The notes below the pieces were generated by a model. It had not been told where the DNA came from. It searched no databases and saw only the letters and a program-made list of their open reading frames with translations. 64,000 nucleotides of DNA from contig NZ_CP041745.1 of NCBI RefSeq assembly GCF_007556815.1, positions 1,240,001 to 1,304,000 on the forward strand, in the 5' to 3' direction. Source of the stretch: Paraburkholderia megapolitana (GTDB lineage Bacteria; Pseudomonadota; Gammaproteobacteria; Burkholderiales; Burkholderiaceae). This document shows positions 49,645 to 54,338 of this stretch, piece after piece. The stretch's first letter is position 1; every line of letters begins with the position of its first letter. Both the position numbers and the translations under genes were made by a program.

Positions 49645-50337
49645 ATGGCGGCCATGATCCTTCGTTTCGATGCAGCCGATGCCCACTGGCGCGTCACGCC
49701 GCTGCCCTGTTTCAGTACCGATCAGAAAGACTGGCTCACGCGCGGCGGCTCGCTGACTGCGCATCTGCGCACGCTCGGCGAGGTCGCCGTGCGCGTCACG
49801 CGTGAGGCCGTCGCGCAGCCGTGGGCCGATGAATATGCAGCGCTCGCGGTCGTGCCGCGTGCGCCGGTGTGGGTGCGTGAAGTGGTGCTCTCAGTGGACG
49901 GTGTGCCGTTCGTCGCCGCCCACAGCATCGTGCCGCTTGCAGCGAGCGTCGGCGTGTGGCTATCGATCCGCCGGTTGCGCACGCGACCGCTCGCCGAACT
50001 GCTGTATAGCGACAGCACGGTTGCGCGTTCGTCGCTCGTGAGCCGCAGGCTCGTTGCGCGGCATCCGCTGTATCGGCTGGCTGCACACGCAAGCGATGAG
50101 GTGTTGCCGCATGCGCTCGTTGCGCGTCGCTCGGTGTTCGAGCGGTACGGCGCACCGCTGATGGTGACCGAGTGTATGTTGCCCGCGCTGTGGCGGAATC
50201 TGGCTGTTACCTCGCAACTGGATGTTGAGCGTGCGCAGACGCATCCGCGTGATCATGGACGCGCGCTTGGGCATACGGCATCGCGTGCTCACCACGCAGT
50301 GCCGCCGCGGGATGCTCGCCAGGGCGAGGCTTCCTGA
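49645..50337 (+). CDS. ubiC: Chorismate--pyruvate lyase
   Basis: A 230-residue protein, somewhat longer than E. coli UbiC (about 165). It makes 4-hydroxybenzoate from chorismate, the first step of ubiquinone synthesis. Seen: [47 protein letters not shown], and [23 protein letters not shown], with the Arg and Glu of the product site. The extra tail beyond about residue 195 is low complexity. The start may instead be the ATG at 49654; TATAAT overlaps the first ATG, so that one could be part of a promoter. TGATG joins it to the next gene. Confidence 0.88.
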
Positions 50338-50828
50338 TGCAGAAGCGCTGCTTTCCGCCGGTCGTCGATGCGAACACCCGCGTGCTGGTGCTGGGTAGCC
50401 TGCCGGGGGAAGTGTCGCTGGCGCAGTCGCAGTACTACGCGCACAAGCAGAACAAGTTCTGGCTGCTTGTCGGCGATGTGATCGAACGAGATCTGGTTGG
50501 TATGGACTATCCGGCCCGGCTCGATGCATTGCTCGAACATCGCATTGGGCTATGGGATGTCGTTGCTGAAGCGCAGCGAGTTGGAAGTCTTGATAGTCGG
50601 ATACGTGACCATGCCAGTAACGATCTGATCGCGCTGATCGATACGTTGCCGAAGCTGGTGACCATCGCGTTCAATGGTGGGACCGCAGAAAGAATTGGAC
50701 TGAAGGTACTCGGAGAGTATGGTGGTCAATATCGACTTCTCCGCCTGCCATCAAGCAGTCCCGCCCATGCTTCGGTTTCATACGCTCAAAAGCTAGATGT
50801 GTGGCGACAGTTGGGACAGTGGATATGA
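50337..50828 (+). CDS. DNA-deoxyinosine / uracil-DNA glycosylase (UDG family 6)
   Basis: A 163-residue base-excision enzyme. VLVLGSLPGEVSLAQSQYYAHKQNKFW (about 17-43) is the first active-site loop; its AHKQNKFW is typical of hypoxanthine-DNA glycosylases. LPSSSPAHAS (about 137-146) is the second loop. The UDG fold core TIAFNGGTAE lies between. It removes deaminated bases from DNA. Its ATG overlaps the ubiC stop by one base, and its own stop overlaps the TIR gene ATG (ATGA). The last third of the gene is noticeably AT-richer than the first, towards the accessory gene that follows. Confidence 0.88.
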   Translation: MQKRCFPPVVDANTRVLVLGSLPGEVSLAQSQYYAHKQNKFWLLVGDVIERDLVGMDYPARLDALLEHRIGLWDVVAEAQRVGSLDSRIRDHASNDLIALIDTLPKLVTIAFNGGTAERIGLKVLGEYGGQYRLLRLPSSSPAHASVSYAQKLDVWRQLGQWI

Positions 50829-51616
50829 ACAGGAATTTGTCTGAGACAGGGAATTACAGTTTTGACGATTACGAATACGGACCAGTTATTGTGGTTCGGG
50901 GGAGCTTTAAGGGAAGAATTGGCGAGCTAGACGATACTGAGAAAAGGCGTGGTTGCGTTTATTTCGCAGGATTTGGTATATCCTCCAAGTATGCATTATT
51001 GCCCATGTCATATTTGCGATCGCCTAATACACGGGATTTGCTACAAAGATATGAAGCCTTATGGCGTAGTCTCACTGCATATTTAGAGAATTCTTTGCAG
51101 GGTGACGCCAGAATCGATGCGTTACAGGAAATGGCGTACGTATCTAATATCCTTAGCAATCGTATGTTTGATGCGCAATTTATGACACTTCACAAAGGAC
51201 TTTCAGTTTTTCTTTCGCATTCGTCCAGCGATAAGACTTTTGTTAGAGGGCTTGCTGTCGACTTGGCGGCGCTGGGGCACACGCCTTGGTTGGATGAATG
51301 GGAAATTTTAGGTGGTGAATCGATTCCCACTAGAATATCGGAAGGCATCGAGTCATCGGACGTGATACTTGTCGTGTTATCAACAAATTCGATTTCATCG
51401 AAATGGGTCGAGAATGAGTGGCAGGTAAAACATTGGGACGAGATTAGTACCCGGCGTGTTGCGGTTATACCTATCTTGTTGGAGAGTTGCGAAATCCCCA
51501 CTTTATTGAGGGTGAAACGCTACATAGATTTTCGCGGTGACTATTCCATTGCGCTTCAAGATCTCGCAAGGACCCTCAAGGGACATTCAAGTCATAAGGG
51601 GGCGCGTGAGTCCTAG
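50825..51616 (+). CDS. TIR-domain protein, candidate NADase/defence gene
   Basis: A 263-residue protein whose ATG overlaps the glycosylase stop. Residues about 125-250 form a TIR domain: LSVFLSHSSSDKTFVRGLAVDLAALG (box 1), WLDEWEILGGESIPTRISEGIESSDVILVVLSTNSI (BB loop and box 2), and KWVENEWQVKHWDE. The Glu of WxxxE (about 198) matches the catalytic Glu of NAD-cleaving TIR domains. Residues 17-50 contain VVRGSFKGRIGELDDTE, a KOW/SH3-like pattern, followed by a helical stretch (70-120). The DNA is much AT-richer than its surroundings and has different codon use, indicating transfer. No membrane segment. A role in abortive-infection immunity is inference. Confidence 0.85.
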   Translation: MNRNLSETGNYSFDDYEYGPVIVVRGSFKGRIGELDDTEKRRGCVYFAGFGISSKYALLPMSYLRSPNTRDLLQRYEALWRSLTAYLENSLQGDARIDALQEMAYVSNILSNRMFDAQFMTLHKGLSVFLSHSSSDKTFVRGLAVDLAALGHTPWLDEWEILGGESIPTRISEGIESSDVILVVLSTNSISSKWVENEWQVKHWDEISTRRVAVIPILLESCEIPTLLRVKRYIDFRGDYSIALQDLARTLKGHSSHKGARES

Positions 51617-51683
51617 GTGAATACAATCGCTCATACCGGCGCAATTGCTGGGCGGGTGGCGTCCTGGATAGCAACATACGTAG

Positions 51684-51803
51684 TCATATCGCAACGATCG
51701 GATCGGGCCCGGTAGCCTCGTACATGGTCTTGCGGGTTACACCGAAGCGGTGCGCCTGTCGCGCGAGCCGCTTCGGCAGACTTTCTTCACCAAGCCCCAC
51801 CAC
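51684..51803 (-). CDS. 39-codon helix-turn-helix-like segment directly after the ATPase stop
   Basis: Immediately after the TAG stop of the ParA-like ATPase, the same reading frame stays open for 39 codons (GTG GTG GGG...) to a TGA at 51684. It encodes EESLPKRLARQAHRFGVTRK and then TMYEATGPDPIVAI, a plausible short HTH. It may be a GTG-started coupled small gene, a readthrough tail, or a decayed C-terminus cut off by the TAG. There is no good ribosome site. Codon use is chromosomal. Confidence 0.4.
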   Translation of the reverse strand: MVGLGEESLPKRLARQAHRFGVTRKTMYEATGPDPIVAI

Positions 51804-52499
51804 CTACAAAGCAAGCCTACCCATCTCACTATGCGCGCGCTGCAGCCACACCTTGACGCGCTGCCGCTCCAGCACACCGAACCCGATGCTGTCACGATCC
51901 GGGTGATTGACCGCAGCCCAAAAACTCGCACTGTGCCGATCGATTTTCTGCATCGTCGTATCAGGCAACCGACGCAGCGAAATCACACTCGCGCCAAGCG
52001 CTTCAGCGCGTTGGCGCTCACCGGACGCTTCCAGAATCTCGAAGCGATCGCCGCGCAGTTCATTGAGGACGAGCACGAGCTTCACCCGCCCGCCGAACCG
52101 GTCGAGCCACTGCCGCAGCAGATCCACCGAATCGCGCCCGGTATCCATCACATGCCACCACTTCAGCGTGAGCCCGTGCTCTTCTGCAAGCGCGATCACA
52201 TCGGAATCGTCGAACCATGTTGCAAGCGAGTGCTGCGTCTGCGCCGCGAGGTCGACCAGAATGCGCCGCTGCGGATCGTCGAGCGCGTGCTCGATGATCG
52301 GGTCGAGACTGTCATGCCGGTCAGTCGCGACCGGCGCCGCATAGTCGGAATAAAACCGCAACAGCGCACCATGCGACTTGTCGGTATCGAAACCCAGAAA
52401 CGGCACGTTCCGATCGATGAAATGCTGTGCCAGCACGCGGGCGACAAGCGATTTCCCGACACCGCCTTTTTCACCACCAATGAAGTGGATATAGCTCAT
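51804..52499 (-). CDS. Solitary ParA/MinD-like ATPase
   Basis: A 231-residue P-loop ATPase. The deviant Walker A FIGGEKGGVGKSLVARVLA has the ParA-type extra Lys (GEKGGVGKS). Switch/Walker elements follow in FLGFDTDKSHGALLRFY and RILVDLAAQTQHSLATWF, then VKLVLVLNELRGDRFE. No parB, parS, flagellar or mobilisation partner is visible, so it is not an ordinary partition system. Relatives are often annotated as mobilisation proteins. An in-frame open stretch continues past its stop. It is convergent with the TIR gene and upstream-adjacent to a DUF1330 gene on the same strand. Confidence 0.8.
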   Translation of the reverse strand: MSYIHFIGGEKGGVGKSLVARVLAQHFIDRNVPFLGFDTDKSHGALLRFYSDYAAPVATDRHDSLDPIIEHALDDPQRRILVDLAAQTQHSLATWFDDSDVIALAEEHGLTLKWWHVMDTGRDSVDLLRQWLDRFGGRVKLVLVLNELRGDRFEILEASGERQRAEALGASVISLRRLPDTTMQKIDRHSASFWAAVNHPDRDSIGFGVLERQRVKVWLQRAHSEMGRLAL

Positions 52500-52530
52500 T
52501 TCTACAGGCCCTTTGTCGTGGAGTCAGTCG

Positions 52531-52821
52531 TCATCGCACGCCTTCGACGAGCACCGCGCGATAACGCGCCCCTTTGAAACGATGCTGCACGACTTCCTGG
52601 TATGCAGGGCTGTCGTACCAGGCGCGCGCTTCTGCGGTCGACGGGAATTCGACGATCACCACGCCTTCAGGCGCATCCCCTTCCAGGACCTGTTGCGGGC
52701 CGTAGGCCGCGAGCGTCTTGACCGGGTGCCCCTTGAAGGTCGCGCCGACCTTGCGCATGTAAGTGTCGAGTTCTGCCTGATCCTGCGTGCTTTCCCGTGT
52801 GAAAACCATGTAAGTCGCCAT
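52531..52821 (-). CDS. DUF1330 family protein
   Basis: A 96-residue protein from the ATG at 52821, with AGGAGC nine bases upstream. YMVFTRESTQDQAELDTYMRKVGATFKGHPVKTLAAYGPQQVLEGDAPEGVVIVEFPSTAEARAWYDSPAYQEVVQHRFKGARYRAVLVEG is the whole dimeric alpha/beta-barrel DUF1330 pattern, with the EGD, VVIVEFPS and AWYDSPAYQ signatures. The activity is unknown. A longer frame upstream is unsupported. The ATPase gene starts 31 bases downstream on the same strand, so the two may be cotranscribed. Confidence 0.9.
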   Translation of the reverse strand: MATYMVFTRESTQDQAELDTYMRKVGATFKGHPVKTLAAYGPQQVLEGDAPEGVVIVEFPSTAEARAWYDSPAYQEVVQHRFKGARYRAVLVEGVR

Positions 52822-53088
52822 GTCGTACGCTCCTGCAACGGTGTGAGGGTGCGTGTGATGATGCCACGAAACGGTGGCACGTTCAGGGCGTGCAGGGCGG
52901 CGCAATAGCAATGTCCGATTGCCAGGGCATACCCTCGGTTCTCTCTTTGTCACGGTGACAAAAAGCTTTCAAACATACTTTCATTTAAATAAAAATCAGG
53001 TTGCGTTTACCCAACAATTTTATTGTCGAAGGTTCGTTCACGGTTATTCTGCGCTCCGCCCTTTCACTAAAAAACCAAGGACGCGCTC

Positions 53089-54216
53089 GTGAAGACCACA
53101 CTGACTACCCTGACTCTGGCAATGCTTGGCATCAGCGGCATTGCTCACGCACAAAATACCGTAACGCTGTACGGCATCATCGATACCGGCCTGACCTACG
53201 TTTCCAACCAGGGCGGCGGCCGGTTCGTCGGCATGACGTCGGGCAACGAGTCCGGTAGCCGCTGGGGCCTGAAAGGCTCCGAAGATCTCGGCGGTGGTCT
53301 GAAAACCGTCTTCCAGTTGGAGAACGGCTTTAACTCGACGAACGGCAGGCTCGGTCAAGGTGGCCGGATGTTCGGTCGCCAGGCGTTCGTTGGTTTGAGC
53401 AGCGACAAGTGGGGGACGCTCACGGCCGGTCGTCAATACGATCCGCTGGTCGACCTGATTCAGCCGTTCCAGGGCGATGGCTTCCTCGGTGGCATCTTCA
53501 TCTCGCCGGGCGATATCGATAACTCCGACAACAGCGCGCGCGTCAATAACTCGCTCAAGTACACGTCGCCGTCCCTGTCCGGTCTCCAGTTCGAACTCAT
53601 GTACTCGCTGGGTGGCGTGGCTGGCTCAACCGGCTCGGGTCAGAGCTACGCTGCCGCCGCCGCGTATACATCGGGTCCCGTCAACGTGGCCGCGGGTTAC
53701 TTCCACATCAGCAACGGCAGCGGCGCGAACCGCGGCACCACGACCTGGGATTCGCTGTTCAACACGTCGGTCAACGGTGCGTATTCCACCGCTGCTTCGA
53801 TCAACGATGCGCGTATCGCGGGCAACTACATCTTCGGTTCGGTGACCCTGGGCGGCTACTACAGCTACGCGGAATACACGGTGGACGGAAGCTCGACGTT
53901 CAAGCAGACGCAAAAGTACAACACGGGTTCGGTCTATGCCGTGTGGCAGGCGACGCCCGCGCTGCAGACCCAGGTCGGCTACGTGTACCTGAAGTCGAGC
54001 GGCAACTCGTCTGCGAAGTACAACCAGTTCGCCGTTGCAGCGGATTATTCGCTGAGCAAGCGTACCGATCTTTACGCATGGGTGGCTTACACGGCCGCAT
54101 CAGGCAAGCAGGACCCGGCGGGCACGCCGGCGGTTGCCGTCATCGGCTCGGCCACGGGGGACTCCAGTTCTAACCGGCAGGCCACTGCGACCGTGGGTAT
54201 TCGCCACCGGTTCTGA
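53089..54216 (+). CDS. General outer-membrane porin (Gram-negative porin, OmpC-like trimer)
   Basis: A 375-residue porin starting with GTG at 53089; AAGGA lies eight bases upstream. The signal peptide ends AHA before QNTVTLYGIIDTGLTYVSNQ, the usual first beta strand. GSRWGLKGSEDLGGGLKTVFQLENGF and MFGRQAFVGLSSDKWGTLTAGRQYDPL are family hallmarks, and the protein ends in the outer-membrane sorting Phe (VGIRHRF). The 110 bases upstream are very AT-rich, as common for strongly regulated porin promoters. It is a passive channel for small hydrophilic solutes. Confidence 0.95.
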   Translation: MKTTLTTLTLAMLGISGIAHAQNTVTLYGIIDTGLTYVSNQGGGRFVGMTSGNESGSRWGLKGSEDLGGGLKTVFQLENGFNSTNGRLGQGGRMFGRQAFVGLSSDKWGTLTAGRQYDPLVDLIQPFQGDGFLGGIFISPGDIDNSDNSARVNNSLKYTSPSLSGLQFELMYSLGGVAGSTGSGQSYAAAAAYTSGPVNVAAGYFHISNGSGANRGTTTWDSLFNTSVNGAYSTAASINDARIAGNYIFGSVTLGGYYSYAEYTVDGSSTFKQTQKYNTGSVYAVWQATPALQTQVGYVYLKSSGNSSAKYNQFAVAADYSLSKRTDLYAWVAYTAASGKQDPAGTPAVAVIGSATGDSSSNRQATATVGIRHRF

Positions 54217-54231
54217 CATCGCGTCTGGGCA

Positions 54232-54249
54232 GCCCGGCGCAAGCCGGGC
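54232..54249 (+). terminator. Hairpin after the porin gene
   Basis: GCCCGGC at 54232-54238 and GCCGGGC at 54243-54249 with a GCAA loop, 16 bases after the stop. No T-run follows, so it may act as an mRNA-stabilising hairpin or a weak terminator. Confidence 0.45.
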
Positions 54250-54338
54250 GGTACGGGGTGGGTCGGATGCGGTAGGCGAGACGCGGGATGCTATGCTCTC
54301 GTTCGACTAAAAATTACGCCTCCGGCACAACCCCGTTC

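Follow-up and report, generated by a model that had tools for sequence, protein, structure and literature searches.

A 64,000-nucleotide stretch of the Paraburkholderia megapolitana contig NZ_CP041745.1 (hereafter the window) carries a gene for a TIR-domain protein whose composition sets it apart from the DNA around it, raising the question of what this protein does and how its gene came to lie there. The gene is an open frame running from an ATG to a stop and encodes 263 residues; a preliminary description of this DNA had given it that extent and length together with the motifs LSHSSSDK and WVENEW, all of which are present in the sequence. The TIR domain, described there as complete, is indeed recognised by the TIR_2 profile (PF13676) with 103.9 bits, far above the cut-off of 28, and no other protein of the same genome matches that profile. 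Among PDB sequences, 26 matches were obtained up to E 1, most of them TIR proteins or receptors by name, with AbTir first and one non-TIR name (ExpZ, E 0.083). In this alignment E198 of WVENEW falls on the Glu of the AbTir WTNYE segment, and we take the Glu at this WxxxE position to be catalytic in TIR NADases. Eight residues of the active region (S131, S134, W155, D157, E165, W194, E198 and W204) are identical in all 11 aligned sequences, and the full-length model retrieved TIR domains and TIR-containing proteins with Foldseek. The GC content of the gene is 0.452 against a window mean of 0.630 (sd 0.032; 792-base windows, step 50), and the lowest such window of the 64 kb (0.451, at 50801) lies over the gene, confirming that this DNA is AT-richer than its surroundings.

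Table 1 Features of the KOW-like/TIR locus; positions are those of the window.
Feature	Position	Strand	Evidence
DNA-deoxyinosine glycosylase (UDG superfamily), mosaic by sequence comparison	50337..50828	+	TIGR04274 E 5.5e-46; ATGA overlap with TIR gene
Inferred left recombination joint, inside glycosylase	50428..50454	.	Maximum chi-square breakpoint
KOW-like/TIR protein gene	50825..51616	+	Open frame; TIR_2 E 1.1e-29; AlphaFold2 mean pLDDT 83.8
KOW-like SH3 barrel (predicted), ~residues 18–65	50876..51019	+	Pfam below cut-off, model, Foldseek, hhalign
Two helices, residues 69–83 and 93–119, between barrel and TIR	51029..51181	+	DSSP of model
TIR domain, residues 128–245	51206..51559	+	Pfam match
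E198, predicted catalytic Glu	51416–51418	+	Aligned with AbTir Glu; invariant 11/11
Stretch with right joint	51617..51812	.	blastn to ParA side of G027, G007, G031, G004 begins 51812–51836
ParA/TraL-like ATPase, right flank at TIR-free sites	51804..52499	-	CbiA, NF010461, both below cut-off

No Pfam family matches residues 1–120 above its curated cut-off, and the PADLOC matches of the protein all begin at residue 98 or beyond, so that the barrel is matched by nothing known. KOW domains are a type known from ribosomal proteins, and residues 19–33 (GPVIVVRGSFKGRIG) form what we take to be a KOW-type motif. The Pfam KOW profile scores 15.7 bits (E 0.014) on the protein, short of its gathering score of 22.3, and matches four of the 11 aligned sequences at E up to 1, the best at E 0.014. 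Modelled separately, residues 9–121 fold into a small beta barrel with two helices behind it (pLDDT 87.0, pTM 0.78). The 50 Foldseek matches listed for these residues are mostly ribosome chains, NusG and Spt5/DSIF, plus KapB; among them the best E is 0.003, none is below 0.001, and query TM-scores range from 0.32 to 0.42. With hhalign, the barrel aligns to L24 in the register of the KOW motif with a score of 18.1 against a permuted maximum of 13.0 (probability 8%, 16 columns); the score against NusG, 13.3 with a permuted maximum of 23.1 and a probability of 1.4%, is not significant. These controls used 100 column permutations; the 4 L24 and 15 NusG sequences came from 30 loci and were chosen by motif. 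The N-terminal alignment, run as a profile against PDB sequences, returned no KOW protein. We therefore label the domain KOW-like rather than KOW. Residues ~18–65 are accordingly predicted, with weak support from sequence, to be a KOW-like SH3 barrel that precedes two helices. Its union with a TIR domain would be a new sensor-domain architecture; in the open-access literature we found no paper joining KOW and TIR domains, none combining NusG, a TIR domain and phage, and none since 2019 combining any two of KOW, phage defence and an SH3-like barrel.

A model for such a two-part protein is SpbK from Bacillus subtilis ICEBs1, likewise a single protein of about this size with an N-terminal domain and a C-terminal TIR domain. 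According to the SpbK report (PMC12847820), its TIR domain ends at residue 266, and a phage portal protein activates it through the N-terminal domain, which binds this trigger. Staphylococcal Thoeris TIR proteins form complexes with a phage capsid protein (PMC11312562). By analogy, we consider it somewhat better than an even chance that the window's protein is a stand-alone, horizontally moving abortive-infection NADase of the SpbK kind, whose KOW-like module senses a component of phage or host. The module and the two helices would keep the protein quiet until the module recognised a trigger that phage infection produces or alters; trigger binding would cluster the C-terminal TIR domains, which would cleave NAD+ through E198, and this cleavage would stop the infected cell. 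The KOW-like module would then act as sensor and the TIR domain as executioner, and we infer NADase activity, oligomerisation, a trigger and a role in phage defence for the protein. If this is correct, one-gene TIR immunity gains a sensor type, a KOW barrel of the kind found in ribosomal and transcription proteins.

The known systems each differ from this protein in part. The N-terminal domain of SpbK is a four-helix bundle, in contrast to the predicted KOW-like barrel and two helices here, and the PADLOC spbK model reaches only E 0.044 (residues 124–150); as the N-terminal fold differs, we do not file the protein as an SpbK member. AbTir and other bacterial TIR NADases share the TIR fold (AbTir 7uxu, TM-score 0.77 by target length), but the AbTir chains matched among solved structures consist of the TIR domain, and the N-terminal domain of the window's protein is without a match among them. 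The best PADLOC match is PDC-S66 (E 5.7e-16), presumably a candidate system and a singleton by its label. Since the match occupies model positions 145–240 of 282, PDC-S66 must also have a long N-terminal part, but only residues 122–217 of the protein studied here match, and the N-terminal part of PDC-S66 does not.

A bolder reading, which we regard as unlikely, would have the protein guard the cell's own machinery for gene expression, with phage takeover releasing or clustering the TIR NADase. KOW domains of the L24 or NusG type dock on the ribosome, S10/NusE and RNA polymerase; the KOW-like barrel would dock where these do, and the triggering takeover would be host shut-off or antitermination. 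The gene would spread as solitary cargo, in this genus by way of a DNA-repair gene that serves as recombination anchor and leaves displaced 3' pieces. A KOW-type sensor on a TIR domain would suggest that the machinery itself can be watched.

The preliminary description had seen none of the usual TIR partners nearby, and the flanking genes agree with it: neither the glycosylase nor the ParA-like gene is a known partner. The ParA-like protein matches CbiA at E 3.7e-4 and the TraL-like NF010461 at E 6.8e-7. Known partner systems were rejected with PADLOC, which, applied to the three proteins, gave TIR-type models for the TIR protein and nothing for the glycosylase or the ParA-like protein. ThsB of Thoeris belongs to the same TIR superfamily, and a Thoeris-like protein would make a cyclic ADP-ribose as the activating signal for an effector whose gene lies elsewhere. 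Although ThsB models make up 9 of the 18 PADLOC matches, and ThsB_TIR, at 20.3 bits, falls narrowly short of its cut-off of 21.2, we find this rather unlikely: ThsA is absent beside the gene, no partner recurs in the loci examined, and the STALD domain has no match in the same genome, though control genomes gave none either. The protein is not filed as a Thoeris member because the partner is lacking beside the gene.

Relatives allow the solitary character of the gene to be followed beyond the window. A scan of genome contigs confirmed 24 loci, of which 12 (L012–L022 and L028) match well into the N-terminal part; as the scan requires exact short peptides, more distant members were missed. Ten relatives were aligned with the window's protein, to which they are 39–55% identical, leaving out L017 (a frame without its first part) and L021 (an internal stop). 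By record title, they come from Pseudacidovorax, Rhodoferax, Achromobacter, a betaproteobacterial MAG, Denitromonas, Kosakonia, a planctomycete MAG, Nocardia, Saccharopolyspora and a MAG named Methylomagnum, so that the same architecture spans Beta- and Gammaproteobacteria, Planctomycetota and Actinomycetota, at unrelated loci. TcpB/BtpA and some other bacterial TIR proteins have been proposed to act on eukaryotic hosts, and AbTir and TcpB are among the solved sequences matched here; an aim at eukaryotic hosts is nonetheless the least probable account we considered, given relatives in a planctomycete MAG and in several taxa whose lifestyle we take to be environmental.

Within this range the KOW-TIR gene is rare and scattered, since only its own genome carries it in full length in the samples of 369 class genomes (E 1e-40), 399 order genomes and 398 phylum genomes (both E 1e-35). 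Two other order genomes match over the TIR part, and four other phylum genomes match from model position 95 at the earliest. A separate search of 98 genomes (58 of the same genus, its own counted) gave six matches at E 1e-8, again full-length in its own only. The N-terminal part had no match in plasmids; the full protein matched 167 plasmid records, in none of which coverage reached 80%, and, with its TIR part, two phage records, and viral contigs held no relative. At the DNA level, the stretch taken from the window had no match in plasmids, nor the Kosakonia copy in E. coli genomes.

Among the picked neighbours of the 12 relatives' loci, a single one is shared, by L021 and L022 (both Saccharopolyspora), and no recurring partner was found there. 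The ORF picker takes the longest non-overlapping frames and, where DNA is GC-rich, may overlook genes or propose spurious ones; a carboxypeptidase-like frame at L012, for example, escaped the neighbour comparison and was seen on re-inspection. The idea of a single-gene TIR effector, already put forward in the preliminary description, is supported as far as sequence can show. The sites differ: the gene lies behind a glyoxalase gene, behind nusB, behind a SUKH gene, and, by our own ORF reading, between a D-Ala-D-Ala carboxypeptidase-like gene and a Sua5-type gene. In five of six loci tested it starts 17–73 bases past a same-strand frame (512 bases at L016). Ten neighbours were scanned (NusB, an AIRS-domain protein that we take to be ThiL-like, a ParE-like toxin, glyoxalase, rRNA adenine dimethylase, a Sua5-type protein, a HicB-like protein, an MFS transporter, a TonB receptor and a SUKH protein); those identified are mainly housekeeping rather than known defence genes, the ParE-like, HicB-like and SUKH proteins being exceptions. 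Such neighbours speak against the proposed immune role, as do the plasmid, phage and viral-contig results and the PADLOC matches confined to residues from 98 onwards. At all 12 loci the GC content of the gene is lower than that of the rest of the locus, by 0.006 (one locus only) to 0.276. Transposon-like entry was rejected, as exact direct repeats in the 250 bases flanking the gene on each side did not exceed, at any of 11 loci, the longest one obtained in 100 shuffles; inverted repeats over the same distance, taken without separate shuffles, reached at most 10 bases. In the Methylomagnum MAG (L028:5531-8910), the gene begins 17 bases behind nusB and is followed by a ParE-like toxin gene, ahead of the AIRS-domain gene. 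Westiellopsis prolifica (L023:4615-8702) has three separate TIR matches in about 4 kb.

How did the gene enter this chromosome? The low GC content starts within the upstream glycosylase gene, whose thirds have values of 0.616, 0.544 and 0.521, the drop lying at about the same place as the maximum chi-square break. As 107 of 5000 permutations gave a break as large, the chi-square test alone is modest. Residues 3–39 of the glycosylase are at zero distance to G007 and G031, and residues 40 to the end form a clade with G051, G002, G056, G009 and G048 (support 0.991). On the flanks, ubiC has its shortest distance to G027 and is sister to G034 (support 0.885), and for the spermidine-synthase-like protein the closest counterparts are those of G007, G004 and G027. 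In G027, G007, G031 and G004 the glycosylase is directly followed by the ParA-like gene, giving sites without the TIR gene. By these comparisons the glycosylase is a mosaic, its first ~39 codons matching the nearest relatives and the rest another clade, and the TIR gene likely entered beside the foreign 3' part. The right joint is bounded to the stretch of about 190 bases given in Table 1. Comparison across the genus, which the preliminary description had proposed, found the glycosylase in 58 of 58 genomes and the full-length TIR protein in one; together with the GC deviation this supports acquisition by transfer, with the mosaic marking the likely entry route.

The ATGA overlap of the two genes and the joint import of the glycosylase 3' part would also suit a single operonic unit, with the glycosylase as detector of modified phage DNA and the TIR protein as executor. 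We judge this very unlikely: no glycosylase was found in the relatives' loci L012–L022 and L028 (tblastn, E 1e-4), so that it was rejected as a general partner of KOW-TIR, and across the genus the glycosylase occurs in every genome searched, unlike the TIR protein.

The glycosylase-downstream site appears to be a repeated insertion spot for foreign genes. Genomes across the genus repeat one gene order, namely ubiC, glycosylase, spermidine-synthase-like gene and SSS transporter, and some carry additional genes behind the glycosylase. The glycosylase falls into two classes, 65–82% and 49–54% identical to the window's. In 22 of 29 genomes of the second class, the spermidine-synthase-like match starts where the glycosylase match ends; six have something in between, and in G028 the spermidine-synthase-like gene was not found in the stretch fetched. 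In the first class, none of the 27 genomes with both flanks (the window's included; G041 and G055, which end at a contig edge, are not among them) is closed, the gap being only 30–173 bases in four (G026, G023, G057 and G011). Scanning 20 proteins of the 120 frames picked, the window's included, identified ParE, CcdB, an HTH protein, a nucleotidyltransferase, a GNAT protein, a chemoreceptor and an usher as cargo; seven of the 20 had no Pfam match at the E-values used, and none was an integrase. The unrelated genes at this spot, among them ParE, CcdB, the chemoreceptor and the usher, could mean that the TIR gene is a functionless passenger that merely happens to have persisted at a hotspot open to many genes. 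This is quite improbable, as the frame is intact and all eight active-region residues checked are invariant across 11 sequences, the others being only 39–55% identical to the window's.

The 35 downstream intervals longer than 60 bases were searched against the glycosylase proteins of all 58 genomes, and 12 contain extra glycosylase pieces, compared with none of 35 when the proteins were reversed. In G022, G029, G035 and G038, a piece of 16–47 residues ends at residue 154 of about 156 and reaches the spermidine-synthase-like gene, a pattern that displacement of the old 3' end by incoming glycosylase-plus-cargo DNA would produce. The pieces in G016 and G053 are weaker and match a divergent tail only. 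The window has no displaced glycosylase piece before its spermidine-synthase-like gene, and six other KOW-TIR loci gave no convincing match to a displaced 3' piece of the upstream gene, the weak ones being at L016 (E 3.8e-4) and L020 (E 0.003). A conserved anchor, new cargo and old parts downstream make the locus resemble T6SS immunity-gene arrays and Rhs 3' tips, the Vibrio arrays being attributed (PMC5361080) to a process akin to homology-facilitated illegitimate recombination; unlike there, the anchor here is a DNA-repair gene and stays complete. Such recombination calls for one homologous and one non-homologous joint; here the inferred left joint lies inside the glycosylase and the right one is only bounded. 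In the open-access literature we found no deoxyinosine glycosylase described as a hotspot. With its mosaic anchor, displaced 3' pieces and unoccupied sites for comparison within one genus, the locus preserves a legible trace of how anchor-gene recombination may bring single genes into bacterial chromosomes.

Further cargo and short matches were seen at the same locus. Behind the G051 glycosylase (L082:8928-10168) lies an AT-rich overlapping pair (GC 0.42 and 0.40), possibly an effector-immunity pair: one protein has a Tlde1-like match that is weak (E 0.093, below cut-off), and the other is a DUF4952 protein. In G039 (L091:2050-3148), a toxin-antitoxin-like overlapping pair comprises one protein with nucleotidyltransferase and winged-helix-type matches and one of 144 residues without a Pfam family. 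In the window, a DUF1330 gene and a porin gene (52500-54300) separate the ParA-like and spermidine-synthase-like genes, whose matches are only 187–249 bases apart in G027, G007, G031 and G004, and perhaps represent a second insertion. Between the TIR and ParA-like genes, short stretches of 21–42 bases within 51729-51778 have matches at other sites in 13 further genus genomes, and 51740-51762 is found elsewhere in identical form in one genus genome and at 22 of 23 bases in two more.
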